Assembly (NCBI GenBank): GCA_035699745.1
Contig: DASSPH010000037.1
Location: 1 to 46,304 of the forward strand
DNA length: 46,304 nucleotides
DNA from: Vicinamibacterales bacterium
GTDB taxonomy: Bacteria > Acidobacteriota > Vicinamibacteria > Vicinamibacterales > 2-12-FULL-66-21
Direction of reading: 5' to 3'
The position numbers were made by a program, and so were the translations under genes. Each line of letters opens with the position of its first letter. The stretch's first letter is position 1. The notes under the pieces are model-generated. The model ran no database searches. It saw only the letters and a list, made by a program, of their open reading frames with translations, and was not told the DNA's origin. Shown one piece after another: positions 10,894 to 46,304 of this stretch.

Positions 10894-12077
10894 GGCAGTT
10901 CCACCGCCAGCGCGACGCCGTTGCCGCCGCCGAGACACAGGGACGCGATGCCGCGCTTCCTGCCGTGGCGCTTCAGCGCGTAGAGCAGGGTCGTCAGTAC
11001 GCGCGCGCCGCTGGCGCCGATCGGATGACCGAGCGCGACGGCCCCGCCGTGGACGTTCACCTTCGCCGGAGCGATGCCCAGCTCGCGCAGCACCGCGACC
11101 ATCTGGACGGAGAACGCCTCGTTGATCTCGAACAGGTCGACGTCCTCGAGCTTCCAGTTCACCTTGGCGGCGACCTTGCGCACCGCTTCGACCGGCGTCA
11201 TCAACACGAGCTTCGGCGCGAGTCCCGAGGTCGCCTGTCCGGCGATGCGCGCGATCGGCTGAACGCCGAGCGCGGCGGCTCTCCCGGCCGACATGACCAC
11301 CAGCGCGGCGGCCCCGTCGTTCACGCCCGGCGCGTTTCCCGCGGTGACGCTGCCGTCCTTCTTGAACGCCGGCCGCAGGCCGGCGAGCGTCTCGACGCTG
11401 GTGTCGGCGCGGACGGCCTCGTCGTGGGCGAACGCCAGGGGCGCGCCTTTCTTCTGCGGGACTTCCACCGGCACGATTTCGTCCGCGAACCAGCCCTGGC
11501 TGGCGGCGTGCGCCGCCTTGCGATGGCTTTCAGCGGCGTACCTGTCCTGCTCGCCACGACCGACCTTGAAGTGTTCGGCCACGTGCTCGCCGGACATGCC
11601 CATGTGGCACTGCTCGAACGCGCACCACAGGCCGTCGTGGATCATCGCGTCCACGAGCGTGCCGTTCCCCATGCGCAGCCCTTCGCGCACACGCGACAGC
11701 AGGTACGGCGTGTTGCTCATCGACTCCATGCCGCCGGCGACGGCGACGTCGATGTCGCCGGTGGCGATGCCCTGGGCCGCGAGCATCACCGCCTTGAGCC
11801 CGGAGCCGCACACCTTGTTGATCGTCATCGCCGCCACGTGCTCGCCGAGACCGCCGTGCAGCGCGGCCTGACGCGCGGGATTCTGCCCTTCGCCGGCGGT
11901 GACGACGTTGCCCATGATGCACTCGTCCACCACGCCCGGATCGATGCCGGCGCGGCGCACCGCTTCACGCACGGCGATGGCGCCGAGCTGCGGCGCGGTG
12001 AAGTCCTTCAGGGATCCGAGAAACCTGCCCGTGGGCGTGCGGGCGGCGGAGACGATGACGGCGTCGCGTGTGGTCAT
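10890..12077 (-). CDS. Acetyl-CoA acetyltransferase (thiolase)
   Basis: The 395-residue thiolase condenses two acetyl-CoA or cleaves 3-ketoacyl-CoA. Key residues are visible: nucleophile Cys90 in [11 protein letters not shown], His in [17 protein letters not shown], and the second Cys in CLGGGNGVA. The N-terminal [19 protein letters not shown] is typical of the biosynthetic or AtoB type. ATG 12077 sits in an ATGA overlap with the DUF721 gene upstream, and its own stop overlaps the dehydrogenase, so the three genes are translated in series. Confidence 0.96.
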
Positions 12078-12355
12078 GAACAGGTTCGAACGCGCAAGGC
12101 GGTGACGGTGCCGGCTCCGAGCAGGAGCTGCACCCGGGTGAGAATCGTCGCCGCGGCGCGCTCGATCTCGGCGGCCCACCGCGCGTCCTTCGGCATGACG
12201 TGCAGGATCCCGTCACGCAGCTCGACGGTGGTGGCGCGCGCAATCGCCGGACCGACGGCGATACTCCAGGCGAACGTGGCCTTCGCCGGCGTGAGCGGCT
12301 GCCGGCGGATCACCTCGGCGACGACATCCGTCGCGAACCCCTGGAGCGGTAGCAT
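12074..12355 (-). CDS. DUF721 / DciA-family protein
   Basis: This 93-residue protein matches the DUF721 (DciA-like) family: a helical N-terminus, then [26 protein letters not shown], the family's W...VG..IA..T....GIL.V pattern, and an amphipathic helix before the end. DciA proteins help load the replicative helicase in bacteria lacking DnaC; whether this short form does so is inference. The ATG at 12355 lies 6 bases after TACTAT (12362-12367, complement), which supports this start over a longer upstream frame. It leads a coupled operon with thiolase and hydroxyacyl-CoA dehydrogenase. Confidence 0.78.
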
Positions 12356-12390
12356 CCTTCCATAGTACTCGCGTTCGGCGCGTCTGCTGG

Positions 12391-12807
12391 CTACGCGGCT
12401 TTCCGGCGGCCGTTCGGCGCGCGCAGCAGACACCGGTATTCCGGGAACGCGCGCAGGAGCCGCAGGATGTGAGCCGCGATGGTGCGGGCCGGGCAGCGGT
12501 CGGGCAGCGTGAGGTCGAAGCCGGACATCAGGGCTTCGCGGTTGTCACGTTCCGATACGGTGTCCGGAACGAGTGCCATCAGGGCCCGCCGTCCGAAGTG
12601 GGGCTTGGCCCGCAGCCGTGCGCCGATCATGGGCAGCGAGGACCCACGGGTCGCACGCACGATGACCACGTGGTGGCCCTCGAGATCCTCCGGCGACGGC
12701 AAGTGCTCCGTTTCCTCGACGCGGAAGCCGAGCGATCGCAGCGCCGCCAGGCGGGCGGCGTCACTGCCACAAGGGCCGATGAAGAGAATGCCGCACTGCT
12801 TCACCAC
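12391..12807 (-). CDS. Degenerate response-regulator receiver-like protein
   Basis: No family is certain. The predicted pattern resembles a CheY-like receiver: strand ILFIG, helix, strand HHVVIVRATR, strand ALMALVP, then SGFDLTLPDRCPARTIAAHI, which resembles the end of receivers (G.D....P.....L...I). The phospho-acceptor Asp expected after the third strand is absent (VRAT), and the conserved Lys is replaced in TLPDR, so it would not be phosphorylated normally. A strong Shine-Dalgarno GGAGGTGA (complement of 12813-12820) precedes GTG 12807, which is chosen over the longer frame. It is divergent from the ferritin gene. Confidence 0.55.
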   Translation of the reverse strand: MVKQCGILFIGPCGSDAARLAALRSLGFRVEETEHLPSPEDLEGHHVVIVRATRGSSLPMIGARLRAKPHFGRRALMALVPDTVSERDNREALMSGFDLTLPDRCPARTIAAHILRLLRAFPEYRCLLRAPNGRRKAA

Positions 12808-12863
12808 CCGAGTCACCTCCCGCCACACGGCAGAGGCAACCGTCGTGCCAGCCGGGCGTGGCA

Positions 12864-12869
12864 TATACT
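12864..12869 (+). promoter_or_regulatory. -10 element of ferritin gene
   Basis: TATACT ends 9 bases before ATG 12879. A GTG at 12858 in the same frame lies upstream of this box and cannot be on the transcript if the box is used. Confidence 0.5.
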
Positions 12870-12878
12870 TTCCTCGAC

Positions 12879-13373
12879 ATGATGATCCATCCCGAGTTGG
12901 TCAAAGCCTTCAACGCGCAGATCGGCCAGGAGTTCGGCGCCAGCATGCAATACGTCAGCATCGCGGCGCACTTCCAGCGGCAGCAGCTCACGCTGCTCGC
13001 CAAGCTGTTCTTCGAACAGGCCGACGAAGAGCGGCAGCACGCGATGAAGTTCGTCCGCTATCTGCTCGACACGAAAGGGGACCTGGCGATCCCGGCGATC
13101 CCGGCGACGCAGCCGTCGTTCGCGTCCGCCGAAGCGGCGGTGCAGGCGGCGTTGACGTGGGAGCAGGAAGTGACGCGGCAGATCACCGCGCTGATGGACA
13201 TCGCGGTGAAGCACAACGACTATCTCGCCCAGAGCTTCCTGCAATGGTTCATCGACGAGCAGCTCGAGGAAGTGGTGAAGATGGACCGGCTGCTGAACGT
13301 CGTCCAGCGCGCCGGCGACAAGAACCTGCTGATGGTGGAGGCCTATCTCGTGCACATCGAGAAGGCGGGCTAG
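12879..13373 (+). CDS. Ferritin (non-haem, FtnA-like)
   Basis: This four-helix iron-storage protein has about 164 residues. Counting from the second ATG (12882), Glu17 (QEFGASMQY), Glu50 and His53 (EERQH) fall exactly at the classical ferroxidase positions. Glu in TWEQEV and the WFIDEQLEEV segment provide the remaining ligands of the third and fourth helices. It would oxidise Fe(II) and store Fe(III) in a 24-mer cage. ATG 12879 or 12882 are both possible starts. The gene is followed 28 bases later by a universal stress protein gene, which fits a stress or iron context. Confidence 0.92.
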   Translation: MMIHPELVKAFNAQIGQEFGASMQYVSIAAHFQRQQLTLLAKLFFEQADEERQHAMKFVRYLLDTKGDLAIPAIPATQPSFASAEAAVQAALTWEQEVTRQITALMDIAVKHNDYLAQSFLQWFIDEQLEEVVKMDRLLNVVQRAGDKNLLMVEAYLVHIEKAG

Positions 13374-13401
13374 CGAGCGCCGTCGACGGGAGGCCGCGGC
13401 C

Positions 13402-14289
13402 ATGACGATCCTCTGTCCGATCGACTTCTCCGAGCCGTCGCGCGGCGCGCTGCGCTACGCGGCCGTGGCCGCGTCGTATGCCGGTGAATCGCTGACGCTG
13501 CTCACGGTGAACGATCCGCTGCTGGAGCAGGCGGCGGCGATGGCGAACGGGCCGGGGAGCCTCGACGCCGACGCGCTGCGCGAGCTGCGCAAGTTCTTCA
13601 ACGACACGTTCAGCGGACGGCCGCCCTCGGTCCCCGTCGACTTCTCGGTCGCGACGGGGAAGCCGGACGCCGAGATCCTGCGCGCCGCGGTCGAGCGGAA
13701 GGCGCGGCTGATCGTGATGAGCTCACGCGGCGCGACCGGGATCCGCAAGCTCTTTCTCGGCTCGGTGACCGAGCGCGTGCTGCGCGCCACCACCGTGCCG
13801 GTGCTGGTCACGCCGCCGGCTGACGCCGGACCGGCCGCCGTGGACGACATCCGCAAGACCGTCCGCCGCATCCTCGTGCCGGTCGACATCACGTTCCCGG
13901 GCATGGCGCAGACGGTCGAAGGGGCGCGGCAGATCGGCGTCATCCTCGGCGCCCCGATTCTGCTCGTGCACGTGATCGAGCCGGTGCGCGCGATGGTTCC
14001 CGGCCACGCGTTTGCCGCCAACGTCGACAGCGAGCGCCGCGATCACGCGGAGCAGATCCTGCAGGATCTCGTCGACACGCTCCCCGACGATCCGCGCATC
14101 GAGCCGCTGGTGATGTTCGGCGAACCGGCGGAAGAAGTCGCGAAGATCGCCGCCGATCGCCAGGCCGGCCTGATCGTCATGGGACTACACGCCTCGGCGA
14201 TGCCGGGCGCGCGCATGGGTTCGGTGACCTACCGCGTGCTCAGCATCGCGCACGAGCTGGTGCTGGCATTGCCGCCGCAGAATCCCTAG
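13402..14289 (+). CDS. Tandem-domain universal stress protein (UspA family)
   Basis: The 295-residue protein has two Usp domains. Domain 1 (about 1-140) starts ILCPIDFSEPSRGALRYA and ends with the ATP-binding pattern RGATGIRKLFLGSVTERVL. Domain 2 (about 152-290) starts RRILVPVDITFPGMA and ends with GARMGSVTYRVLSIA. Both retain a G-x9-GS type nucleotide loop, so ATP binding is likely in both halves. Such proteins support survival under stress by mechanisms that are poorly defined. A GGGAGG sequence lies about 10 bases before ATG 13402. Confidence 0.93.
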   Translation: MTILCPIDFSEPSRGALRYAAVAASYAGESLTLLTVNDPLLEQAAAMANGPGSLDADALRELRKFFNDTFSGRPPSVPVDFSVATGKPDAEILRAAVERKARLIVMSSRGATGIRKLFLGSVTERVLRATTVPVLVTPPADAGPAAVDDIRKTVRRILVPVDITFPGMAQTVEGARQIGVILGAPILLVHVIEPVRAMVPGHAFAANVDSERRDHAEQILQDLVDTLPDDPRIEPLVMFGEPAEEVAKIAADRQAGLIVMGLHASAMPGARMGSVTYRVLSIAHELVLALPPQNP

Positions 14290-33900: not shown

Positions 33901-33940
33901 CCGGTAGCCGGTAACCGGTAACCGGTAACCGGTTACCGGT
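33886..33940. repeat. Short tandem repeat array, 7-bp unit TAACCGG
   Basis: About seven TAACCGG heptamers (one TAGCCGG) end in a palindromic GGTAACCGGTTACC. Both convergent genes end inside it: TAA at 33898-33900 for the glycosidase-like gene and TAA (complement of 33933-33935) for the SGNH lipoprotein. Confidence 0.9.
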
Positions 33941-34934
33941 CCAGCGGCGTCTGTTTCACGGTGTTCTGAATGGCCGCGAAGAACGCCTCCGCGACGACCT
34001 GACTTCCGCCCGGCCGCAGATGCAGTCCGTCGGCTTCGATGTAATCCGCTTCGTGGCCGAGGAACAGCGGGTACACGTCCACCAGCGTCGCGGCGTTGCC
34101 CGCGACGATCTGCCGGATGCGCACGTTGGTCTCGACGATCGCGTCGTTCGAGATGCGCCGATCCTTCGATCCGGGACCGACCGGGCCGGGCGGTGTCAGC
34201 GTGCTGACGAACACGTAGCTGACGCGCCACTCTCTCGACTTGCGGATCACTTCGCGGACGCCGTCGCCGATCGCGTTGATGGCGGCGCCGCAGTCGGTCG
34301 TATTCACCGGACCGCGGCCGCATTCGTTCAGCAGGTTGTTGTAGCCGCTGAGAAGAAGTACCGCGTCCGGGCGATCGGCCGCGAGCTCGCCCGGGAGTTC
34401 CTCGGCCGTGCGCTCGATGGGCCAGCCGCTGATGCCGCGATTGATGACGCGCAGGTTCTGACCGGGATAGGCCGCGTCGAGCGCCTCCTGCAGCTTCGTC
34501 GGATAGGCGTTGGGAATGTCGAGGATCCTGATGCGCCCGTTCTCCCCCTCGGTCAGGCTGTCTCCCGCCGCGAGGAACTTCGCGGCGCCCAACGCGAACC
34601 CGGTCAGCGTCACGGTGAACGAGCACGTCGCGGCGCGCGCCTGCGCATCCGTGGCGGAGCACGCCACCGCCGTTGCCCCCAGGCGGAAGTCGGATCCCGA
34701 ACCGGGGCTGCAGTTGACCGTGACCGGCGCCGCGCCGCCGGAGACGGTCGGCGCGGGGTAGGTGACCGCCTGCACCGCGCCGCGCACCTCGCGGACGGTG
34801 AGATCCGCGGGACAGGCGATGGCCGGCGCGGACGGCTGCGGTGTCGGGTCGACCGGTCCGTTCCCCTTGCCGCCGCAGGCAAGACTGAACGTCAGTGCGG
34901 TCGCAGCCAGATAGCGAAGTCTCGGGAGCCCCAC
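33933..34934 (-). CDS. SGNH/GDSL hydrolase lipoprotein with HYR domain (copy 1)
   Basis: The 333-residue product is a lipoprotein (ALTFSLACGG). A HYR-type Ig domain (about 40-115, IACPADLTVREV...ATCSFTVTL) precedes an SGNH esterase domain. The catalytic blocks are AAGDSLTEGENG (Ser), INRGISG (Gly), LLSGYNNLL (Asn) and ADGLHLRPGG (Asp and His). It would deacylate or de-esterify an extracellular carbohydrate or lipid. GTG 34934 is used. Thirteen bases separate it from a paralogue just upstream. Confidence 0.88.
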   Translation of the reverse strand: MGLPRLRYLAATALTFSLACGGKGNGPVDPTPQPSAPAIACPADLTVREVRGAVQAVTYPAPTVSGGAAPVTVNCSPGSGSDFRLGATAVACSATDAQARAATCSFTVTLTGFALGAAKFLAAGDSLTEGENGRIRILDIPNAYPTKLQEALDAAYPGQNLRVINRGISGWPIERTAEELPGELAADRPDAVLLLSGYNNLLNECGRGPVNTTDCGAAINAIGDGVREVIRKSREWRVSYVFVSTLTPPGPVGPGSKDRRISNDAIVETNVRIRQIVAGNAATLVDVYPLFLGHEADYIEADGLHLRPGGSQVVAEAFFAAIQNTVKQTPLDR

Positions 34935-34947
34935 GCGACCACGGATC

Positions 34948-35955
34948 CTACCTCAGCTGTGGTGTTTGTGGGATGGTCGCCTTGATTGCCTGGAAGAAGG
35001 CCTCGGCCACGACCTGGTAGCCGGCGGCATTCAGGTGCAGTCCATCGGGCGAAACGAGCTCGGCTTCGCGTCCCTGAAACAGCGGGTACGTCTCGACGAG
35101 CGTCGCGCGTTCCGTGGCGACGTGCTGCCGGATGCGGCGATTGACCTCGAGAATCGCCTCGCGATCGATCCGCTTCGATCCGGTGGGTCCCGGCGGCACG
35201 AGCGTGCTCGCGAAGATGTACTTCACCCCGGCCGGCGATTCCTTGATCCGGCGGATGGCGTCGCGCGTGCCGTAGACGGCCGTGAAGTCGATCGCCGCGC
35301 TGCACGCGGCCGTGCCGAAAAGTCCGGGCGCGCACGGCGTCGTCAGATTGTTGTAGCCGACCATCAGCAGGACGGCATCGGGGCGCTCTGCGTTGACGAT
35401 GCCGGGGATCCGGTCTTCCAGTTCCTCGGCCTTCAATCCACTGACGCCGCGATTGACGACGACGATGTCCTGCCCTGGATAGGCGGTGGCGAGCAATCCG
35501 GAGAGCTTTGCCGGGTACGAGTTCGGCACGTCCACGATCGACGGCAGGCCGTTCTCCCCCGCGGTGAGGGAATCGCCGACGGTCACGAACTTCTTCACCG
35601 TCAGCGTGAACCCTTTCACGTTGACGCGGAACGAGCACGTCGCTTCGCGCGCCTGGGCATCGCGGGCCGCGCACGCGACGGTCGTCTCGCCGAGCGCGAA
35701 CTGCGATCCGGACGCCGGCGCGCAGGTCACGTTCACCGGCGCCGCGCCTGCGGTGGTCGTCGGCGCCGGATAGGTGACCTCGATCGCCGGGACGGGCACT
35801 TCGGCGACGGTGATGTCCGCCGGACAGGCGATCTGCGGCGGATCGATCACCGGCGTCGGACCCGGCCCCTTCGCGCCGCCGCAGCCCCCCGCGGCGGCCG
35901 CGACAGCGATCGCCGCGGCGATGATTTTTGTGTTGAAATAGCGCGCCAGACGCAT
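34948..35955 (-). CDS. SGNH/GDSL hydrolase lipoprotein with HYR domain (copy 2)
   Basis: The 335-residue paralogue has the same order: signal with a lipobox-like AAAAGGCGG, HYR domain (IACPADITVAEV...ATCSFRVNVK), then SGNH blocks VGDSLTAGENG, VNRGVSG, MVGYNNLT and PDGLHLNAAG. The two proteins share stretches such as RPDAVLL and QVVAEAFF, indicating tandem duplication. ATG 35955 is chosen because it begins the signal peptide; a longer open frame overlaps the divergent AT-hook gene. Confidence 0.88.
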   Translation of the reverse strand: MRLARYFNTKIIAAAIAVAAAAGGCGGAKGPGPTPVIDPPQIACPADITVAEVPVPAIEVTYPAPTTTAGAAPVNVTCAPASGSQFALGETTVACAARDAQAREATCSFRVNVKGFTLTVKKFVTVGDSLTAGENGLPSIVDVPNSYPAKLSGLLATAYPGQDIVVVNRGVSGLKAEELEDRIPGIVNAERPDAVLLMVGYNNLTTPCAPGLFGTAACSAAIDFTAVYGTRDAIRRIKESPAGVKYIFASTLVPPGPTGSKRIDREAILEVNRRIRQHVATERATLVETYPLFQGREAELVSPDGLHLNAAGYQVVAEAFFQAIKATIPQTPQLR

Positions 35956-35977
35956 TATTCTCGTAGAAATTCCCGCT

Positions 35978-36505
35978 GTGCTCAGAAAAACCGCGGAGGT
36001 TCCGCTCGCGCCGCGCCGCGGGCGGCCTCGAAAGTTTACCGCACCGGCGAGGCCGGTCACCTTTACGCTGCCCGAGCGCGTCCTCGACGCGCTCGGCACG
36101 CTCGATCCGGACCTCGGCCGCGCCATCGTCCGGCTCGCCCAGCCGCTGCTGGCCGAAGGGCGTCATCCCCCGGCAGAGCTCGCGACCTTCGGCCGCCATT
36201 CCGTCATCGTCGTCAATCCCAGTCCGACGCTCGAGAAGCGCACCGGCGTGGAACTGATCCACCTGCCGGACGGCCGCGCGCTCATCTCGTTCGACCGATC
36301 GAAGACGATTCCGGGTCTCGAGCTGCTGATTGCCGATGCGCTCGAAGATCCGGCGCTGCCGAAGGAAGACCGCGACGTCTTCGAGGCGGTCGCGGGCATC
36401 CTCAAATCGGCGCGGCGCTCCGACAACGTCGAGCTGCTGCAGCGCCACGTCATCGTGCTCGAAACGCGCCGCCGCGCGGCGCCCCTACGGAGGTCCAGCA
36501 AGTGA
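35978..36505 (+). CDS. AT-hook protein with ribbon-helix-helix-like region, hypothetical
   Basis: The 175-residue protein starts with a basic AT-hook core (PRRGRPRKF), which binds the minor groove of AT-rich DNA. PVTFTLPERVLDALGTLDPD and GRAIVRLAQ follow, resembling the strand-helix-helix of CopG-type regulators. The rest (HSVIVVNPSPTL, HLPDGRALISFDRS) is unknown. It is likely a DNA-binding regulator, possibly of the divergent SGNH genes or the coupled lipoprotein gene. The GTG start is 16 bases after TATTCT. Its stop overlaps the next gene in GTGA. Confidence 0.65.
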   Translation: MLRKTAEVPLAPRRGRPRKFTAPARPVTFTLPERVLDALGTLDPDLGRAIVRLAQPLLAEGRHPPAELATFGRHSVIVVNPSPTLEKRTGVELIHLPDGRALISFDRSKTIPGLELLIADALEDPALPKEDRDVFEAVAGILKSARRSDNVELLQRHVIVLETRRRAAPLRRSSK

Positions 36506-39133: not shown

Positions 39134-39155
39134 AGTTTACATGACGTGCCATAAT
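39134..39155. promoter_or_regulatory. Divergent -10 elements (flavoprotein / YvcK-GT2 fusion)
   Basis: On the minus strand TAAACT (39139-39134) ends 9 bases from ATG 39124. On the plus strand CATAAT (39150-39155) ends 6 bases before GTG 39162. No Shine-Dalgarno is present for either gene. Confidence 0.45.
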
Positions 39156-39161
39156 TCCCCT

Positions 39162-41057
39162 GTGCATCAGGGACCCTCGACGCGCGCCGGCGCGCTCGGC
39201 GTCGTGGTGTTCACGGGCGGCCGCGGATCGGGTGCGCTGGTGCGTCAGCTGGTGGCGCGCAAGGGCGTCTCGCTGACCCTCGCGATCAACGGGTACGACG
39301 ACGGCGCGTCGACCGGACAGGTGCGCCGCTTCCTGCGCGACAGCCTCGGTCCCTCGGATTTCCGCAAGAACGCATCGCGCGTGGCGCGCGAGCTGCTCAG
39401 CGCTCCGGAAGCGTTGATCGACGCGCTCGATCGCCGGCTCGGCGCGGGCACTACAGCCGAGGCGGCGCTGGCCGAGCTGGAGGCGCTGGCGCGCGAGTGG
39501 CCGCCGCTCGCGCCGTACATCGATGCCTTCATCGACGAGTACCGGCGCCGGGGCGATTTCACCTTCGACGACTGCAGCGTCGGCAACATCGTATTCGCGG
39601 GGGCGTACCTCGCCGCCGGACGTGATTTCAATGCCGCCGTCGACCGCTACTGTGCGCTGCTGAGCCTGCCTGACGGACTGATCGAGAACGTGACCGACGG
39701 CCGGAATGCGCATCTCGTCGCCCTCGATGCCGAAGGACGGCTGCTCCGCACCGAGGAGGCGATCGTGGACGGCCGCCGTCAGAACACGATCGACCGCATC
39801 TTCCTCGTCGATCGCGTGCCGAGCGAGGCCGAAGCCCGGGCGATCGAGCGGATGCCGCGCGACGAGGCAATCCGGGCGCTGGAGGCGCGCCGCCCCGGGC
39901 TGGCGCTGAACCCGAGACTGGCGCGGAAGATCGCCGGCGCGGATGTGATCATCTACGCGCCCGGCACGCAGCACTCGAGCCTCTTTCCCTCGTACCTGAC
40001 GCCCGGCCTCGGCGACGCGATCGGCTCGAACCTGCGCGCCATCAAGCTGCTGCTGACCAACATCCAGACCGACGCCGAGATCGCCGGCAGCACCGCCGTC
40101 GATCTCGTGGATCGCGCGCTGCGCTATCTGAGACACAACGTCAGCTCTCCGCTGCCCGCGCCGTGTCTGATCACCCACTACCTGATGAACGAGCCAGGCA
40201 GGGCCGAGACGGCGCCCTACGTTCAACTCGGTCCGGTGGAACTGATGGAGGATCCGCGGCTCGTGCGGATCGGCGCCTACGAGGACGGCGTGTCCGGACT
40301 GCACGATGCCGCGCGCGTGCTGGAGCCGTTCATCGACACGCTGCTCGCCCCGCGGCGGACGACGCGCATCGCCGTGCTCCTGCACGACTCCGGTTCCGTG
40401 AACAAGACCACCGAATCGATGCTCGAGATGGTGCGGGGCGGGATCCAGGAGCAGCCGATCGATGTGGTCGTCTTCTGCCTGGGCGCGTTCGACTTCGATC
40501 CGCACTTCACGGCCGGTCTGCCGTTCGACGTCCGCGTCGTGCCGGATGCACCCCAGTTCCTCGACGCGGTGCGCGAGGGGGAATTCGATTACGTCGGGCT
40601 GTTCGAATCCTCCGGCATGTATCGCGGGGAAGACCTGGTCGCGCTGCTCGCGCAGTTGACCGATCGCCGGCTGGATGCGGTCTGGGGAAGCCGCCGCCTC
40701 TCGGTGCGCGACATCCAGGAGTCGTATCGCTACCGGTATCGCTCGAGCCCCGTGCTCGGCGCCGTCAGCTTCGTCGGCAGCCACGTGCTCAGTCTGGCCT
40801 GCCTGGTTCTGTACGGGCGTTACATGTCCGATACGCTCTCGGCCGTGTGGGCCGTCCGGGCCTCGGACGCGCTCGAGGTGGGGACGCTCACCGATCGCAT
40901 GGTCAACGAGCGGCTGCTGGCGCGGCTGCTGCGCCGCAGAGCCAGCGTGCTCGAAATGCCGGTCCACTTCATGCCGATCTCGCCGGATCGGGTGCGGCGG
41001 ACCAGCGCGCTCGAAGGGCTGCACGCGCTCGTGACGCTGATCTCGTTGTGGCTCTGA
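39162..41057 (+). CDS. YvcK/CofD-like domain fused to a degenerate GT2 domain
   Basis: The 631-residue protein has two parts. Residues about 10-330 match YvcK/CofD: VVFTGGRGSGALVRQL (nucleotide loop), INGYDDGASTGQVRRF (like ADDGGSSGRLR), GPSDFRKNASRVA, FDDCSVGNIVFAGAYLA, IIYAPGTQHSSLFPSYLTPG and LLTNIQTDAEIAG. Residues about 400-631 resemble a GT2 GT-A domain: RIAVLLHDSGSVNKTTESML, DAVWGSRRL, and GRYMSDTLSAVWAVRASDA, matching GRYLTDTVTAYKLFRRADL of the GT2 two genes on. The metal DxD is replaced by FESSG (residues 481-485), so sugar transfer is unlikely. CofD transfers a phospholactyl-type group; YvcK binds UDP-sugars. Coupling with a nucleotidyltransferase and a GT2 suggests a glycan or phospho-conjugate pathway. 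GTG 39162 is chosen over ATG 39141 because a -10 box lies between them. Confidence 0.8.
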   Translation: MHQGPSTRAGALGVVVFTGGRGSGALVRQLVARKGVSLTLAINGYDDGASTGQVRRFLRDSLGPSDFRKNASRVARELLSAPEALIDALDRRLGAGTTAEAALAELEALAREWPPLAPYIDAFIDEYRRRGDFTFDDCSVGNIVFAGAYLAAGRDFNAAVDRYCALLSLPDGLIENVTDGRNAHLVALDAEGRLLRTEEAIVDGRRQNTIDRIFLVDRVPSEAEARAIERMPRDEAIRALEARRPGLALNPRLARKIAGADVIIYAPGTQHSSLFPSYLTPGLGDAIGSNLRAIKLLLTNIQTDAEIAGSTAVDLVDRALRYLRHNVSSPLPAPCLITHYLMNEPGRAETAPYVQLGPVELMEDPRLVRIGAYEDGVSGLHDAARVLEPFIDTLLAPRRTTRIAVLLHDSGSVNKTTESMLEMVRGGIQEQPIDVVVFCLGAFDFDPHFTAGLPFDVRVVPDAPQFLDAVREGEFDYVGLFESSGMYRGEDLVALLAQLTDRRLDAVWGSRRLSVRDIQESYRYRYRSSPVLGAVSFVGSHVLSLACLVLYGRYMSDTLSAVWAVRASDALEVGTLTDRMVNERLLARLLRRRASVLEMPVHFMPISPDRVRRTSALEGLHALVTLISLWL

Positions 41058-41800
41058 GCCGGCTGCTCGTCATCCCTGCCGCCGGCCGCGGAACGCGCCT
41101 GAGCGCAGACACTCCCAAGCCTCTCGTCTCCGTCGGCGGCCGCTCGATGCTCGATCGCCTGGCAGATCTCTACACGCCGTTCGTCGACGGCATCGTCGTG
41201 ATCGCCAGTCCGGTTTCACGCGCAGCCGTGTCGCGCTGGGCCTCCGGGCGGGCGGCAATCGTCGTCGAGCAGGCAGCCCCGACCGGGATGCTGGATGCGA
41301 TTCTGCTCGCCGCGCCGGCAGTCGAGGCGCGCCGCCCCGACGCCGTCTGGATCACCTGGGCGGATCAGGTTGGCGTGCTGCCCGGCACGCTGCGGCGTGT
41401 GGTGGAAGCGGAAGAGCAGCGTCCCGGACCCGCGATGATCGTGCCGACCGTCACGCGCAGCGACCCGTACATCCACTTCACGCGCGACGCTCGCGGACGC
41501 ATCGCCGGACTCCTCCAGCGGCGCGAGGGGGATGCGATGCCCGGGGAAGGGGAAGGGGATGTCGGCGTCTTCGCGATGGCGCGGGAGATCTTCCGGAAGG
41601 AGCTGCAGGAGTTCGCAGGACGCGCCGCCGCCGGCAGCGGAACCGGGGAGCGCAACTTCCTTCCGTTCATCCCCTGGCTGGCACGACGGCAGAACGTCGT
41701 CACTATTCCGTGCAGCGATCCGATGGAGGCGATCGGCGTCAACACTCCGGAAGATCTGCAGGTCGTCGAGGCCTGGCTCGCGTCACGGAGCGGCGCGTGA
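41048..41800 (+). CDS. Nucleotidyltransferase (sugar-1-phosphate type)
   Basis: The 250-residue NTP_transferase has the signature LLVIPAAGRGTRLSADTPKP and VSVGGRSMLDRL, the metal-binding Asp in WITWADQVGVL, and a final region PMEAIGVNTPEDLQVVE. It would activate a phosphorylated sugar or acid as an NDP derivative. Its GTG overlaps the stop of the YvcK-GT2 fusion, and its own stop overlaps the next GT2 as GTGA, so the three are one translational unit. Substrate is not predictable. Confidence 0.88.
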   Translation: MALSRLLVIPAAGRGTRLSADTPKPLVSVGGRSMLDRLADLYTPFVDGIVVIASPVSRAAVSRWASGRAAIVVEQAAPTGMLDAILLAAPAVEARRPDAVWITWADQVGVLPGTLRRVVEAEEQRPGPAMIVPTVTRSDPYIHFTRDARGRIAGLLQRREGDAMPGEGEGDVGVFAMAREIFRKELQEFAGRAAAGSGTGERNFLPFIPWLARRQNVVTIPCSDPMEAIGVNTPEDLQVVEAWLASRSGA

Positions 41801-42489
41801 CGCGTCTGTCCGTCGTCATTCCGGCCTACAACGAAGCGCGGTTCATCGGGACGCTGCTCGAACGCATCAGGCGCGTCGACCTGGCGCCGCTCGGGGTGGC
41901 GCCGGAAATCATCGTCGTCGACGACGGGTCGCGCGATGACACGGCAGCGATCGCGGAAGCGGTGGAGGGGGTTCGCGTGATCCGGATGGAGCGCAACGGC
42001 GGCAAGGGACGCGCCGTGCGCGCCGGGATCGAGGCAGCCGCCGGCGAGCTGCTGATCATCCAGGATGCCGACCTGGAGTACGACCCGCGCGACTACCTGC
42101 CGATGCTTCGCGCGCTGCTCGAGGGGCGCGCCGACGCCGTGTACGGCAGCCGCTATCTCGGACGCGGCCGCCACCCCAACCAGTCGCTCGCCGCCTACAT
42201 CGGCGGCCGGAGCCTCAGCGCCATCGGCTGGGCGCTGACGGGCCGCTATCTGACAGACACCGTCACGGCCTACAAGCTCTTTCGCCGCGCCGATCTGGCG
42301 GCCCTTCCGCTCGCGACGACCGGCTTCGAGCTGGATCACGAGATCACGGCGCGGCTCCTCGCAAGAGGGAAGACGATTGTCGAAGTGCCGATCGGCTACG
42401 CGCCGCGCAGCCGCGAGGAGGGCAAGAAGATCGGCGCGCGCGACTGGTTGATCGGGACGCGGACGTTCTGGCGCTATCGGAAGGGCTAG
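41797..42489 (+). CDS. GT2 family glycosyltransferase (dolichyl-phosphate-sugar synthase-like)
   Basis: The 230-residue soluble GT-A enzyme has RLSVVIPAYNEARFIGTLL, IIVVDDGSRDDT, NGGKGRAVRAGIEAA, the metal-binding DAD in LLIIQDADLEYDPRDY, GSRYLGRGRHPN and the C-terminal GFELDHEITARLL. It lacks membrane helices, unlike the GtrB-like gene at 31125. It likely transfers a sugar from an NDP donor to polyprenyl phosphate or another lipid. It is the active counterpart of the degenerate domain in the fusion protein. Confidence 0.92.
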   Translation: MTRLSVVIPAYNEARFIGTLLERIRRVDLAPLGVAPEIIVVDDGSRDDTAAIAEAVEGVRVIRMERNGGKGRAVRAGIEAAAGELLIIQDADLEYDPRDYLPMLRALLEGRADAVYGSRYLGRGRHPNQSLAAYIGGRSLSAIGWALTGRYLTDTVTAYKLFRRADLAALPLATTGFELDHEITARLLARGKTIVEVPIGYAPRSREEGKKIGARDWLIGTRTFWRYRKG

Positions 42490-42498
42490 CCGGACGGA

Positions 42499-44454
42499 TC
42501 ATCGCTCGTGCACCCGATAGATCCGGACGTCGCCCCGCGTGAAGACCGGCGCGAAGAGCGCGGGATTCCCATCGAACTTCGCGACGCCTGAGGGATACGC
42601 GCTGCGCTCGGTGCCGTCCACCCAGACGTAATCGATCCGCAGCGCGCGCGCGATGTTCCACGCCTGGCGGGCATCGCCGGTCTGATACATCGCCCGCACC
42701 CGCGCCGCGCGCTCCGCATATTCCGAGTAGTCCGACGTGCCGCCGAGCAGCGAGATCGGCCGTCCCGCCGCCATCCGCCGCTCGGCAAAGCTGGGGATCA
42801 GGCTCCACGTGCTGCGGTCGCGCACCAGGGGCTCCATCTGCACGATGGCCGTCTGCGGCGTGCCGCGACGCAGCCAGTCGAGCCCGGCGCGCTGGTCCGG
42901 GGAGATGAGCACGGTCCACGGGCCGATCGGGCCGTCGGAAACGTTCGACGTGTCCTGCGCGTTGTACGCGTCGATTGCGGTCGTCGGCGTGCCGATGACG
43001 GCAGCGGCAATCGCAGCGGCCACGGCCGTGCGCCTGGCCGCGCCCGTCGTCACGAATCCGCGCGCGATGAGCGCCGGCACGGCGATCAGGAACAACTGCC
43101 CCGAGCGGAACGAAATCCAGGCGGAATCGACGTTCAGCCGCGCGAAGAACATCATCGCGAGGGCGAGCGCCGCCAGCAGGGCCGGCGCGAACGGCCGGCC
43201 GACGCGGCCGACCGCCAGACCGACGACGGCGGCCAGCAGCGCCGGGCCCAGCGAGAGCGCGAGCGTGACGACCGGTGCATTACGCGCATCGCCGAGCCAG
43301 CCGAACTGCAGCGCGGAGCCGCCGCCTTCGGCCATGCGGTTGAGCATCACCCAGCCCAGCGCCCCGGCCACCGGAATCACCGCGACGGCGTGCCTCAGGA
43401 TGCGCGGAACGAACGCCCCGGAACGGACCGCGTCGGCGGCAACGGCGGCGCCCCAGACCAGCGCGAAAACTCCGCCGACGAGCGGATTCATCATCGTCGC
43501 GCCGCCGAGCGCCAGACCCGCCAGCGCGATGGCGCGAACCGGTGTGGCGGAGCCGGCGACATTCACGACGGCGAGTGCGACCAGTCCCAGTGCGTAGGCC
43601 ATCGAGTGCTGCGGTACCCACCAGAAGCAGCGCTGGAGACCGTCGGTGCGGACGCCGTGAAACCACCAGTTGGCGATCGCGTCGATATTCAGGTTGCGCA
43701 CTTCGGACAGCGGCACGCCGGTCTGCCAGAACCGCCACAGGGCGAAGGTGCCCTCGGCGCTCGCCGCGACGATGGCGAGGGTCACGCCCGTCGCGACCGG
43801 CCACGCGTAGGGCAGCGCGGTCCACGCGCAGATGAAGATGGCGGACACGAACAGCAGCGCGGTCGCGATCGCGTTGCCCTTCAGGCACGTCTGCTCGTCT
43901 CTCAGCGACGGCAGCGATGCCGGCGCCGTCCCGGCCACCGCCGACGGAAGCAGGAAATAGGTCCAGTAGTAGTGGATCGGCCGGTGCGCGAGATACGGGT
44001 TGCGGGGCGGCGAGTCGAACTTGGCGATTTCAGCCGCCAGCGCGGTGTGCCACACGAAATCCGCGGTGAAGTAGGCGCGATAGCGGCTGTTCCCTGCGGC
44101 GTCCACTTCACCGGCGCGGAGAAACGGCGGCACCGCGATCGCCAGCGTCAGGATCCAGACTGCCGCGAGCGCCGCCGAATCGCGCGCCGACCACTGGGGC
44201 AGTTCGATCAGCGGGCGCACCACGCCCGGGGTAAGCAGCCAGACGACCACGATGGCGGCGGCCCAGGCGCCCGCGAAGACGAGGGCTGACGGCATCCGCG
44301 CGAACACCGCCGTCCAGATCGCCAGCGACGTCACCACGTAACCGAACAGCGCGCCGGCGATCCACCCCGCGGCATGCCTGCGTCCGAACAGCGCAAAACC
44401 CAGCGGCAGTCCGGGAAGGAGCGCCAGCAGGTAGACGACGAAGTAGATGAGCAT
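42499..44454 (-). CDS. Large polytopic membrane protein, GT-C/DUF2298-like
   Basis: The 651-residue protein has roughly twelve or more membrane helices. It has an acidic extracytoplasmic loop after about residue 115 with YFTADFVWHTALAAEIAKFD and PYLAHRPIHYYWTYFLLPSA, a pattern seen in DUF2298-type and other GT-C-like proteins. The C-terminal part is soluble (about 545-651) with RDRSTWSLIPSFAERRM and YSEYAERAARVRAMY. It probably acts on polyprenyl-linked sugars at the outer face, but the function is inferred. It is the third gene of a minus-strand operon after the radical SAM and flippase genes, with a 6-base gap. Confidence 0.7.
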   Translation of the reverse strand: MLIYFVVYLLALLPGLPLGFALFGRRHAAGWIAGALFGYVVTSLAIWTAVFARMPSALVFAGAWAAAIVVVWLLTPGVVRPLIELPQWSARDSAALAAVWILTLAIAVPPFLRAGEVDAAGNSRYRAYFTADFVWHTALAAEIAKFDSPPRNPYLAHRPIHYYWTYFLLPSAVAGTAPASLPSLRDEQTCLKGNAIATALLFVSAIFICAWTALPYAWPVATGVTLAIVAASAEGTFALWRFWQTGVPLSEVRNLNIDAIANWWFHGVRTDGLQRCFWWVPQHSMAYALGLVALAVVNVAGSATPVRAIALAGLALGGATMMNPLVGGVFALVWGAAVAADAVRSGAFVPRILRHAVAVIPVAGALGWVMLNRMAEGGGSALQFGWLGDARNAPVVTLALSLGPALLAAVVGLAVGRVGRPFAPALLAALALAMMFFARLNVDSAWISFRSGQLFLIAVPALIARGFVTTGAARRTAVAAAIAAAVIGTPTTAIDAYNAQDTSNVSDGPIGPWTVLISPDQRAGLDWLRRGTPQTAIVQMEPLVRDRSTWSLIPSFAERRMAAGRPISLLGGTSDYSEYAERAARVRAMYQTGDARQAWNIARALRIDYVWVDGTERSAYPSGVAKFDGNPALFAPVFTRGDVRIYRVHER

Positions 44455-44460
44455 CCTCGT

Positions 44461-45408
44461 CTATCCGCGCGTCCCGGCGCGCGCCCCCGCAGGCGCGAAC
44501 GCGTACAGCACCGCGCCGGGCAGCGTGCCGATGAACCCGAGGCCGAGGAACAGCATCGACAGCGCGAACACTTCCGGCCGCGGCGCCCCTTGCGGCACCA
44601 AGAACCGGTCGAACGCGAGCTGCGTGGTGCCCAGGCCGTTGGGCGTCACCGGCACCTGCATGATGAAGACGATGAGCGGAATGAACGCGAAGTAGGTGGT
44701 CAGCGCCAGATCGAGGCCGAGCCCGCGGCCGAGACACCACGCCTGCAGCACACGGAATGCCTGCACCGCGATCGAGAGCGCCAGCACGCGGGCGACGGCG
44801 CGGTGGTGCGTCGCGTAGGCGCGCACGGCGTCCGTCAGCGCCGCGGTCACGCGATGCAGCAGTGCGATCGGAACCAGGCCGGCGGCCGCGCGGACGATTG
44901 CCGCGGCGCGCTCGCTGAACACGACCGCTGCAGCCACGGCGCAAACCGCGGCCATGGCGGCCAGCAGCAGCACCAGGTCGCGCGTCCCTTCCACCGTCGC
45001 AAACGGCAGCGCCGCCGCGGCGACGACCACCACGGAGAGCACGCCGAGCGCGCGATCCATCAGGACCGACGCGGTCGATTCCGCCAGGTGCACGTCGTAG
45101 CGGGAGAGTGCGTAGGCGCGGTAGAGATCGGCGCCGACGCTGGGAATGAAGTTGCTGACGAACGAGCTGAGGAAGAAGACGCGCAGCACCGTCCGCAGCG
45201 GCGGGCGCGTCCCTGGGGCGAGCGCGACGAGCAGGTCGATCCACCGCAGCGCCATCAGCGTGCGATCGACGAACACGAGCCCGACCGCGGCGCCGAGCCA
45301 CCGCCAGTCCATCGCCGCGGCGGCGGCGAGGATCGCGGACGGACTGGACCAGTAGAGAACGAGCGCCGTCAGGACGACGGCGATGAGAATCTTGAGCGCT
45401 CTCGGCAC
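44461..45408 (-). CDS. Flippase-like / lysylphosphatidylglycerol synthase TM-domain family (AglD/UPF0104)
   Basis: The 315-residue membrane protein has about eight helices and family marks LRWIDLLVALAPG, VFFLSSFVSNFIPSVGADLY, RAYALSRYDVHLAESTASVL, MDRALGVLSVVVV and VPVTPNGLGTTQLAFDRFL. Members are proposed to flip or modify lipid-linked sugars or lipids. The GTG start follows the radical SAM stop by 3 bases. Confidence 0.88.
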   Translation of the reverse strand: MPRALKILIAVVLTALVLYWSSPSAILAAAAAMDWRWLGAAVGLVFVDRTLMALRWIDLLVALAPGTRPPLRTVLRVFFLSSFVSNFIPSVGADLYRAYALSRYDVHLAESTASVLMDRALGVLSVVVVAAAALPFATVEGTRDLVLLLAAMAAVCAVAAAVVFSERAAAIVRAAAGLVPIALLHRVTAALTDAVRAYATHHRAVARVLALSIAVQAFRVLQAWCLGRGLGLDLALTTYFAFIPLIVFIMQVPVTPNGLGTTQLAFDRFLVPQGAPRPEVFALSMLFLGLGFIGTLPGAVLYAFAPAGARAGTRG

Positions 45409-45411
45409 CGC

Positions 45412-46304
45412 CTAGCGGCCGACTGGCTCGGGAAGCGTGTCCAGGTGCCGGGTCGTGTCCTTCTTCACCTGGTAGGCGCGCTTCAGGAACTTGGCGTAGG
45501 GGACGAACTGTTTCATCGCGCCGACGTTGACCTGGCAGGGGCTCAGGCAGGTCGGGCAGGTCTGTTCCTTGATCTGCTGCCGGTGCGCCAGGTTCTCGGC
45601 CTTGTAATAGAGCGACTCGGCGGACTCGTCGAGCACGTTGCCGATCTTCTGCGAGTTCTCGCAGTAATGGAGATCGCCGTTCGGGTTGAGCAGCAGCCCC
45701 TGGCTCTGGAACGGGCACGGCATCGTCCGGTGGTAGCCGTTCGCGATCATGTCGGCGTAGTGCAGGTACATGAACGCCTGGCCGCTCAGCACCGATTCTT
45801 CCTGGACGCGGTCGAGGAAGAACTTGCGCATGAACGCCTCTTCGCGCTCGCGGAAGCCGACCTTCTCCTCGAGCGACTTGTTGTGCAGCATCGCGTCGGT
45901 GAAGCGCAGCATGTTGAAGACGACGTCGAGCCCCTTCGCGCGCGCCCACGCGAGGATGTTCTCGCCGTCCGACATGTTGGTGGCGAAGAGCGTCGCGGCG
46001 ATGCCGAACTGGAAGTTGTCGTGCTTCTGCGCCAGCGCCTGCATCGCGTCGATCGTCTTGCCCGCCTTGGCGAAGCCGTCCTTGACGTGGCGGACCTGGT
46101 CGTGGATGTTGCCGATGCCGTCGAGCGACACGCGGATGCTGATCAGGACGCGCTTCTCGGCGCAGAACTCGACGATACGCGTGAGCATGGGGATGGCGCG
46201 ATGCGGCGTGAGCCCTGTGGTGTTGATGCCGATCTTCCGCAGCCGCGGCAAGTGCCGCTGGAACAGCTCCACCATCTCCGGCAGGTCGTTCCTCGTCGTC
46301 GGCT
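45412..46304 (-). CDS. Radical SAM protein with SPASM-like C-terminus, N-terminus outside the window
   Basis: The open frame continues through the right edge; its first visible residues PTTRNDLPEMVELF are the end of the radical SAM GGEPT motif. The CxxxCxxC cluster that cleaves SAM must lie beyond the edge. ISIRVSLDGIGNIHDQVR and FQFGIAATLFATNMSDGEN are core strands. The C-terminus has cysteines in MPCPFQSQG, LHYCENSQ and TCPTCLSPCQVNVG, a SPASM/twitch-like auxiliary cluster. It is at least 297 residues here. It leads a coupled operon with the flippase-like and GT-C-like genes, so it may modify a lipid-linked intermediate. Confidence 0.88.
   Translation of the reverse strand, partial: PTTRNDLPEMVELFQRHLPRLRKIGINTTGLTPHRAIPMLTRIVEFCAEKRVLISIRVSLDGIGNIHDQVRHVKDGFAKAGKTIDAMQALAQKHDNFQFGIAATLFATNMSDGENILAWARAKGLDVVFNMLRFTDAMLHNKSLEEKVGFREREEAFMRKFFLDRVQEESVLSGQAFMYLHYADMIANGYHRTMPCPFQSQGLLLNPNGDLHYCENSQKIGNVLDESAESLYYKAENLAHRQQIKEQTCPTCLSPCQVNVGAMKQFVPYAKFLKRAYQVKKDTTRHLDTLPEPVGR

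Follow-up and report, generated by a model that had tools for sequence, protein, structure and literature searches.

A CofD/YvcK-like domain joined to a glycosyltransferase-like domain without donor motifs in Vicinamibacterales, and the nucleotidyltransferase that accompanies it

What can a glycosyltransferase domain do once the site for its sugar donor is gone? The question is raised by a gene in a 46,304-nucleotide contig of a Vicinamibacterales bacterium (DASSPH010000037.1, positions 1 to 46,304 of the forward strand, assembly GCA_035699745.1; hereafter the window), whose product, P0001, joins a domain of the CofD/YvcK type to a domain resembling glycosyltransferase family 2 (GT2). Models and profile searches identify the two folds; the donor motifs of the second are lost, the protein is conserved, and its gene is inherited together with that of a nucleotidyltransferase (P0003) in glycosyltransferase-rich surroundings. 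We propose, tentatively and a little short of an even chance, that the fusion is the transferase of a CofC/CofD-like two-enzyme unit with P0003, acting on an acceptor at the membrane. The gene and its two domains are placed as follows:

39162..41057, + strand: CofD-like / pseudo-GT2 fusion gene, 631 amino acids from GTG 39162
39201..40190, + strand: CofD/YvcK domain, matched by PF01933 at these coordinates in its own genome and by YvcK structures at Z 26
40353..41054, + strand: degenerate DPMS/ArnC-type GT2 domain, residues 405-638, from profile, model and fold matches

Two domains in one reading frame

P0001 was analyzed as a single open frame, 39141-41057 (+), of 638 amino acids counted from ATG 39141; residue numbers refer to this frame, and subtracting 7 gives the 631-residue numbering of the first-pass annotation. 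That annotation had seen the YvcK/CofD motifs in order in the N-terminal half and a GT2-like C-terminal half, and both observations were borne out. Pfam CofD (PF01933) matched residues 21-350 with 68.9 bits against a cut-off of 30, no other Pfam family matched P0001 at E <= 1, and CofD was matched by all 19 members of our alignment A2, which includes P0001 (counts out of 18 omit the distant relative L021). The best NCBIfam match was the GAK CofD-like family TIGR04357 (67.6 bits, cut-off 340), and YvcK TIGR01826 gave 53.8 bits (cut-off 196), both below cut-off; TIGR01819, the CofD of F420 biosynthesis, gave no match at E <= 1. An AlphaFold2 model of whole P0001 from 19 sequences had a mean predicted local distance difference test score (pLDDT) of 76.4 and a predicted template modelling score (pTM) of 0.63, with pLDDT < 50 at residues 345-390. 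Residues 17-410 of this model matched the YvcK structures 2ppv (Z 26.4, 292 residues aligned, root-mean-square deviation (rmsd) 4.2) and 2o2z (Z 26.3, 266 aligned, rmsd 2.6), with FbiA at Z 16.6 and Methanosarcina mazei CofD at Z 16.4. In the alignment to the YvcK structures, the DDGxSxGxxR, D-R, GN, PG and N motifs all follow in order: D53-D54-G-x-S-T-G falls on DDGxSxG and GPSD73FRK on PPGDVRN, and the counterpart of N307 is the Asn within NVMTQ.

39297..39302, + strand: Asp53-Asp54 of YDDGxSTG, in 19/19 rows, aligned to the DDG of YvcK structures
39351..39371, + strand: PSDFRKN; P71, S72, D73, R75, K76 and N77 in 19/19 rows

Residues D53, D54, S72, D73, R75, K76, N77, N149 and N307 are identical in all 18 relatives and in the outgroup L021, and, judged by these motifs, YDDGxSTG together with GPSDxRKN marks a CofD subfamily. 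In FbiA, according to PMC7253369, Asp45 and Asp57 hold the metal while the acceptor hydroxyl attacks the beta phosphate and guanosine monophosphate leaves. We infer a correspondence of D54 and D73 to these two residues, by motif position rather than by a computed superposition, which would make Asp73 the likely second metal ligand.

The C-terminal half is more remote from its relatives. The Pfam GT2 family PF00535 did not match P0001 at E <= 1 and matched only 1/19 members of A2 (3e-25), presumably L021. Alignment of profiles with hhalign, using the 18 C-terminal domains (L021 left out), matched the family of a neighboring GT2 protein, P0004, at probability 98.6 (E 1e-15, 212 columns), as compared with at most 1.5 in 30 column shuffles, 0.4 for a reversed alignment and 0.1 for the nucleotidyltransferase family; the GSR, RYxxDT and PVxFxPxS landmarks are common to the two. 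Residues 405-638 of the whole-protein model matched ArnC (9bhe) and DPMS (5mlz), each at Z 16.9. Modelled alone, the domain (pLDDT 89.2, pTM 0.87) matched ArnC at Z 16.8 (203 aligned, rmsd 3.3), DPMS at Z 16.5 (201 aligned, rmsd 3.2) and GtrB at Z 13.6, the ArnC/DPMS matches spanning Z 16.4-16.8. On these models we assign the domain to the GT-A fold, of the polyprenyl-phosphate GT2 type; a lack of any match to GT-A folds, which by the first-pass annotation would have refuted its reading, was thus not what we observed. P0001 ends at the position of interface helix 2, with no transmembrane domain after it. No CofD-GT2 fusion was among the listed Protein Data Bank matches of the whole-protein and C-domain models.

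As to the start of the gene, GTG 39162 appears preferable to ATG 39141 because several relatives carry a GCCATAAT-like element immediately 5' of the start and because the corresponding frame of L074 has a stop codon inside this element; the upstream ATG is therefore not general, and we dropped it. The element lies a few bases 5' of the start in the window (39150-39164) and in L038, L040, L045-L048 and L074, which suggests a possible -10 element of a leaderless transcript.

39150..39155, + strand: CATAAT, part of the GCCATAAT-like element, just 5' of the start

A donor site lost under constraint

The C-terminal domain lacks the motifs with which its relatives hold a sugar nucleotide. In PfDPMS, as described in PMC5526996, the diphosphate is bound via the metal by Asp91 and Gln93, the base by Asp39 and the alpha phosphate by Arg202.

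40383..40397, + strand: HDSGS at the PxYNE position, donor site lost; LHDSGS is residues 414-419
40605..40613, + strand: Glu489-Ser490-Ser491 at the DxD position; FESSG is residues 488-492

The hhalign path pairs DADLEY of P0004 with FESSGMY and runs the PxYNE and DDxS motifs against stretches that do not contain them; by position, P0001 has LHDSGS for PxYNE and CLGAF for DDxS. FESSG and LHDSGS had been read at these two places from the sequence alone, and both readings are correct. Across the family, the DxD position is E/D-S-S in 18/18 relatives (E 15, D 3; S 18; S 18), PxYNE is absent also from the other 17 close relatives, and the position of the A-loop Arg202 is occupied by I, L or V (12, 5 and 1 of the 18). 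A misread DxD was considered as well; all 18 close relatives lack an intact one, and distant L021 has P-G-D.

These changes have not been accompanied by decay. Among the 18, 88 of 340 columns are invariant in the CofD domain and 43 of 230 in the C-terminal domain, with mean pairwise identities of 59.3% and 55.4%. In four pairs analyzed by a simple Nei-Gojobori method, nonsynonymous over synonymous divergence (dN/dS) was 0.041/0.46 in the N-terminal half and 0.049/0.49 in the C-terminal half for L012 and L013; for L072 against L079, L080 and L081 it was 0.098-0.112 over 0.57-0.80 (ratios 0.13-0.17) and 0.102-0.115 over 1.01-1.09 (ratios 0.10-0.11), respectively. The overall ratios, 0.09-0.17 and 0.10-0.11, indicate purifying selection in both halves, and conservation and dN/dS together rule out a misread gene or a decaying pseudogene. 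That the fusion is an artefact of assembly or gene modelling is scarcely credible: the gene is broken in two in one genome (G009), but 17 aligned genomes of the order and five of another class carry it unbroken in a single frame, with both halves under purifying selection.

A domain so constrained might be re-tooled rather than dead, the E/D-S-S-G-M-Y-x-G-E-D segment having become a new active site, that of a transferase working without a metal or with another coordination. The segment is conserved as an active site would be (F488, S490, S491, Y494, G496 and E497 are constant in 18/18), and in a tree of 56 GT2-domain rows the 18 degenerate ones group as a single clade (support 100/100), whose stem is very long, at 3.12 changes per column, and whose later branches are short. 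However, the PxYNE motif, the Asp of DDxS and the A-loop Arg that hold the donor have been lost too, and we regard a new active site as improbable. The shape of the tree fits one strong change followed by constraint, with the placement of the clade made unsure by its long branches.

The same tree joins the degenerate clade to L021 (97/90) and sets the P0004 family in a clade of its own (94/84). A recent duplication of P0004 as the source of the C-terminal domain is thus unsupported, the long branches leaving the exact source open. In L021 (INTERMEDIATE) the CofD domain precedes a GT2 region that reads PVLNE, ADGGS and PGDNEY at the motif positions. Its GT2 is nearly intact, and GT2 models match its residues 432-666; at its DxD site, P-G-D, the second Asp alone remains. 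Another join of the same kind was found in G579 and G610 (L083 and L084, 745 amino acids), where the GT2 behind the CofD domain is a different one that retains LDDDS; G580 has a CofD protein of the same clade without a GT2. In the tree of CofD domains, the fusion family and L083, L084 and L085 form one clade (100/99) apart from the YvcK and GAK proteins, so this CofD subfamily would have acquired GT2 domains in two separate events, or in a single one with later replacement. The premise of the first-pass annotation, that known YvcK and CofD proteins are single-domain, meets a further exception in G579 and G610, beside the fusion itself. By eye, the neighbors of L083 (1465-3702; G579:C45) and L084 (G610:C172) look like methyltransferase-, carbamoyltransferase- and polysaccharide-export-type genes.

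Distribution and the tie to P0003

The two-domain order, for which a search among relatives had been suggested, recurs in 20/162 genomes of the window's order (best match E <= 1e-20) and in five genomes of another class. All counts from whole genomes are lower bounds, since only the best candidates of each genome were scored (7 for the fusion, 3 in the phylum sample, and 16-17 for P0003 and P0004). The 20 comprise 17 uninterrupted frames in the alignment, one gene broken in two (G009) and two fragments at contig ends (G007 and G038). In G009 (L049 / L020, G009:C462), the gene is split into two frames by an error or a real break. Identity to P0001 is 53-67% across the order, except for L021 (G081) at 28%, and the 20 genomes span 8 families, most of which include fusion-free genomes too. 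Of 396 genomes sampled from the phylum, at least 7 had the full two-domain protein, with G410 and G382 outside the window's class; among 147 genomes of that other class, the fusion was found in five (G410, G382, G520, G528 and G531). The proteins of G410 (55% identity to P0001) and G382 (52%) are as close to P0001 as those of members of its own order, which hints at horizontal transfer of the cluster. Beyond Acidobacteriota, the search consisted of a single contig scan with P0001, which found four loci, all in Acidobacteria metagenome-assembled genomes. Spread to plasmids was considered and rejected: tblastn with P0001 gave 5 records, covering the CofD part only, and with L083 585 records, with none covering 80% of either query.

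Next to the fusion gene lie the genes for P0003 and P0004:

41048..41800, + strand: P0003, GlmU/IspD/MobA-like nucleotidyltransferase, likely start at GTG 41048, overlapping the end of the fusion gene
41782..42489, + strand: P0004, polyprenyl-phosphate-type GT2 (AglJ/DPMS/ArnC-like) with PAYNE, DDGS and DAD intact

P0003 matched NTP_transf_3 with 66.7 bits, and also IspD and GlmU structures. Of 20 other loci that hold the fusion, a P0003-type gene was present in 19, adjacent or up to ~5 kb away, and was missing from L051, a short contig. Across the order, P0003 (E <= 1e-25) was found in 19/162 genomes, all of them among the 20 with the fusion, and in 0/142 of the others; the fusion genome without it, G007, has a fusion fragment at a contig end. 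By comparison, P0004 (E <= 1e-50) was found in 25/162 genomes, 18 in common with the fusion and 7 fusion-free, and a downstream membrane protein (E <= 1e-30) in 48/162, 18 in common with the fusion. Fisher tests of association with the fusion, uncorrected for relatedness, gave 8e-24 for P0003, 2e-16 for P0004 and 3e-9 for the membrane protein. From this co-inheritance we propose that P0003 and the fusion work together.

The position of P0004 bears on a different explanation, in which a CofD-type enzyme acts on a soluble hydroxyl acceptor and the GT2-like domain is a scaffold pairing with P0004, as a pseudo-subunit, or a mere anchor. P0004 is a separate and intact GT2 of the same broad kind, and it is near the fusion in 18/20 loci (partial in L075, in two pieces in L074, not found in L038 and L051); the acceptor of known CofD/FbiA, Fo, is itself soluble (PMC7253369). 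Yet L038 (G065) has the fusion and P0003 with no P0004-type gene in 19 kb, and none over threshold was found in the G065 genome, which is 82% complete, so P0004 seems not to be strictly needed. We hold a scaffold or anchor role with a soluble acceptor to be doubtful, if deserving of serious consideration.

The remaining genes of the cluster are the following:

42499..44454, - strand: membrane protein, chlor_Arch_YYY TIGR03662 at 38.2 bits (cut-off 300), probably GT-C-like
44461..45408, - strand: flippase-like / LPG synthase transmembrane-region protein (PF03706, TIGR00374)
45412..46304, - strand: radical S-adenosylmethionine (SAM)-type protein with SPASM-like end, truncated where the contig stops; a complete relative matches PF04055
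37706..39124, - strand: amine-oxidase-like protein P0002 (PRK07208 type), flavin adenine dinucleotide (FAD)-dependent in type, from the Pfam / NCBIfam scan

Near the fusion in the 20 loci, relatives of the membrane protein were found in 14, of the radical SAM protein in 10, of the flippase-like protein in 9 and of the FAD protein in 3, all lower bounds, as many contigs end inside the cluster. The FAD gene was rejected as part of the unit, two of its three relatives being only 28-30% identical. L072, L073 and L074 carry PMT_2/GT87-type GT-C proteins and further GT2s nearby; a carbamoyltransferase and an epimerase are likewise encoded near the fusion in loci other than the window. Judged by gene content, the surroundings resemble a glycan-assembly setting of the polyprenyl-phosphate kind.

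Two further features of the neighborhoods were recorded. Beside the cluster in L039, the product of positions 12032-14092 is large and weakly resembles terminal beta-(1->2)-arabinofuranosyltransferase (NF041481, 57.6 bits against a cut-off of 1050). In the window, two adjoining GDSL-hydrolase-like genes lie at 33933-34934 and 34948-36126 (-), and GDSL-like genes are near the fusion also in L039, L040, L050, L051 and L074 (Pfam GDSL in L074).

Proposed function and known relatives

We propose a CofC/CofD-like pairing because a nucleotidyltransferase is tied nearly one-to-one to a CofD-type domain; according to PMC8764529, CofD works with CofC and influences which product forms. P0003, as a nucleotidyltransferase of the sugar-1-phosphate type, would make an activated nucleoside diphosphate compound, NDP-X; at the CofD domain, with a metal at Asp53/54 and Asp73, the acceptor would attack the X-side phosphate, releasing the nucleoside monophosphate (NMP) and leaving phospho-X joined to the acceptor. 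The C-terminal domain, presumably descended from a polyprenyl-phosphate glycosyltransferase and no longer holding a sugar nucleotide, would dock the enzyme at the membrane and present polyprenyl phosphate or a polyprenyl-phosphate sugar as acceptor, which may serve a glycan built by the neighboring GT2 and GT-C-like enzymes. The docking and presenting role is suggested because the domain lost the donor parts and kept the GT-A shell, the Arg of GSR and a hydrophobic helix. The reaction, the metal site, and the nature of X and of the acceptor are all inferred from these likenesses.

40686..40694, + strand: GSR motif, Arg518, in 18/18, at the position of PfDPMS Arg117
40749..40817, + strand: hydrophobic helix, residues 537-559, at the place of DPMS interface helix 1, from alignment and model
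41004..41051, + strand: C-terminal helix, residues 622-637, at the place of DPMS interface helix 2, from alignment and model

On the lipid side of PfDPMS, PMC5526996 has Arg117, Arg131 and Ser135 binding the lipid phosphate and the interface helices holding the chain. All 19 rows have a hydrophobic segment where DPMS has interface helix 1, with mean Kyte-Doolittle values of 0.77 to 1.93; where interface helix 2 would lie, the means run from 0.11 to 1.31, weakly to clearly hydrophobic. Ser547, present in 18/18, occupies the position of Ser135 according to an alignment made in two steps, which may be shifted by a few residues.

Several observations weigh against the proposed unit. The Arg131 position is Ser543 in 17/18 relatives, and of the lipid-phosphate ligands of DPMS only Arg117 appears clearly kept; P0004 has Ala and Gly at the Arg131 and Ser135 positions, and because P0004 is presumably active these positions are poor markers here, so that the argument from lipid-side residues is only suggestive. 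Glucosyl-3-phosphoglycerate and mannosylglycerate synthases, enzymes with soluble acceptors, also match the C-terminal domain at Z 13-14. Pfam CofC does not match P0003, for which only NTP_transf_3, IspD and NTP_transferase were found at E <= 1. Three of the 20 genomes of the order (G007, G038 and G009) are fragmentary or broken at the gene. Ser284, in 19/19 rows, stands at the Asn position of the VLPN stretch, and if N198 of GlmR is that Asn (by manual count), a residue implicated in GlmR activity would be replaced in P0001.

The first-pass annotation had offered a new sensor or a new transferase as the function; the architecture it described, a CofD/YvcK core with a degenerate GT2 domain, stands and is conserved in a family, and the transferase, with the dead domain used for binding, fits better than the sensor because the likely metal-site aspartates of CofD are invariant and the tie to the nucleotidyltransferase is near one-to-one. 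One could envision, as has been proposed for YvcK/GlmR, a CofD-like core that binds a nucleotide sugar and regulates the neighboring glycosyltransferases, the dead GT2 contacting P0004 or the membrane. YvcK binds uridine diphosphate sugars, according to PMC5482804, the N-terminal domain resembles YvcK (Z 26) more closely in structure than it does FbiA (Z 16.6), and the C-terminal domain has no donor motifs. However, GlmR of Listeria has itself been reported to act as a uridyltransferase, with ~100-fold lower activity in a D40A/D41A/N198A triple mutant (PMC10128056), and Asp53/Asp54, presumably the counterparts of D40/D41 there, are invariant here. Moreover, the near one-to-one tie is to a nucleotidyltransferase, and P0004 occurs in 7 fusion-free genomes. 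A sensor or regulator thus seems to us rather unlikely.

A more specific form of the proposed transferase, drawn by analogy and in our judgment unlikely, is a third kind of phosphoglycosyl transferase (NDP-X + polyprenyl-P -> polyprenyl-PP-X + NMP), the known ones being termed polytopic and monotopic. A peripheral enzyme would use its CofD domain to move a sugar phosphate onto polyprenyl phosphate held by the donor-blind DPMS-like domain. GT-C systems fed by polyprenyl-phosphate sugars require no phosphoglycosyl transferase. Transferases of PF02397 and PF00953 were absent from the fusion contig in 12/12 genomes searched and present elsewhere in all 12; this absence is weak evidence for the proposed transferase in general, given the point on GT-C systems and the shortness of some of the contigs (10 kb in G072 and 23 kb in G049).

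Compared with known systems, the fusion shares with YvcK/GlmR the fold and motif order of the N-terminal domain and the adjacent DDG aspartates D53 and D54 (19/19), but it falls below the TIGR01826 cut-off, lies in a separate clade with GPSDFRKN and PGTQHSSLFPSYLTPGL signatures, and has an additional GT2-like domain and a nucleotidyltransferase alongside. With CofD/FbiA, the 2-phospho-L-lactate transferase of F420 biosynthesis, it shares the fold and a tie to a nucleotidyltransferase, as CofD has to CofC; the lack of matches to TIGR01819 and, for P0003, to Pfam CofC, and the added GT2-like domain, set it apart. The GAK CofD-like proteins (TIGR04357), although its best NCBIfam match, lie in another clade, those seen here are single-domain, and the scanned neighbors of the fusion include no GAK-type ATP-grasp protein or HprK-related kinase, unlike those of L099. 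DPMS, ArnC, GtrB and AglJ share the fold of the C-terminal domain, whose hydrophobic helices stand where those enzymes have their interface helices, whereas the fusion has lost the donor motifs, has no transmembrane domain and carries a CofD domain. The G579/G610 proteins have a CofD domain of the same clade with a GT2 behind it, yet that GT2 is of another subfamily, and their neighbors look, by eye, like a polysaccharide cluster.

No CofD/YvcK domain fused to a glycosyltransferase was found among the papers listed by searches of the open-access literature, judged by titles and the beginnings of abstracts. Each domain is known; within the reach of these searches, three things are undescribed: their combination, the donor-blind DPMS-like domain and the constant association with P0003. 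CofD and YvcK have been studied as a cofactor enzyme and a cell-wall factor, and here the same fold occurs in an apparent membrane glycan pathway. If the proposal is true, CofD-fold chemistry would extend to lipid-linked glycans, and the fusion would be a clear example of a glycosyltransferase that has lost its donor half and become a docking part; if the phosphoglycosyl transferase form of it is true, a lipid-linked glycan would be started without the known polytopic or monotopic enzymes. Under the proposal, P0003 and the fusion would make a small, expressible two-protein system for a direct test of the reaction.

The window's own genome has two further CofD-family genes, the fusion being the third paralogue. 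The strongest CofD/YvcK-type gene of that genome (G000:C10:64167-65048) lies ~2.4 kb from a PF02397 initiating sugar transferase (67426-67977).

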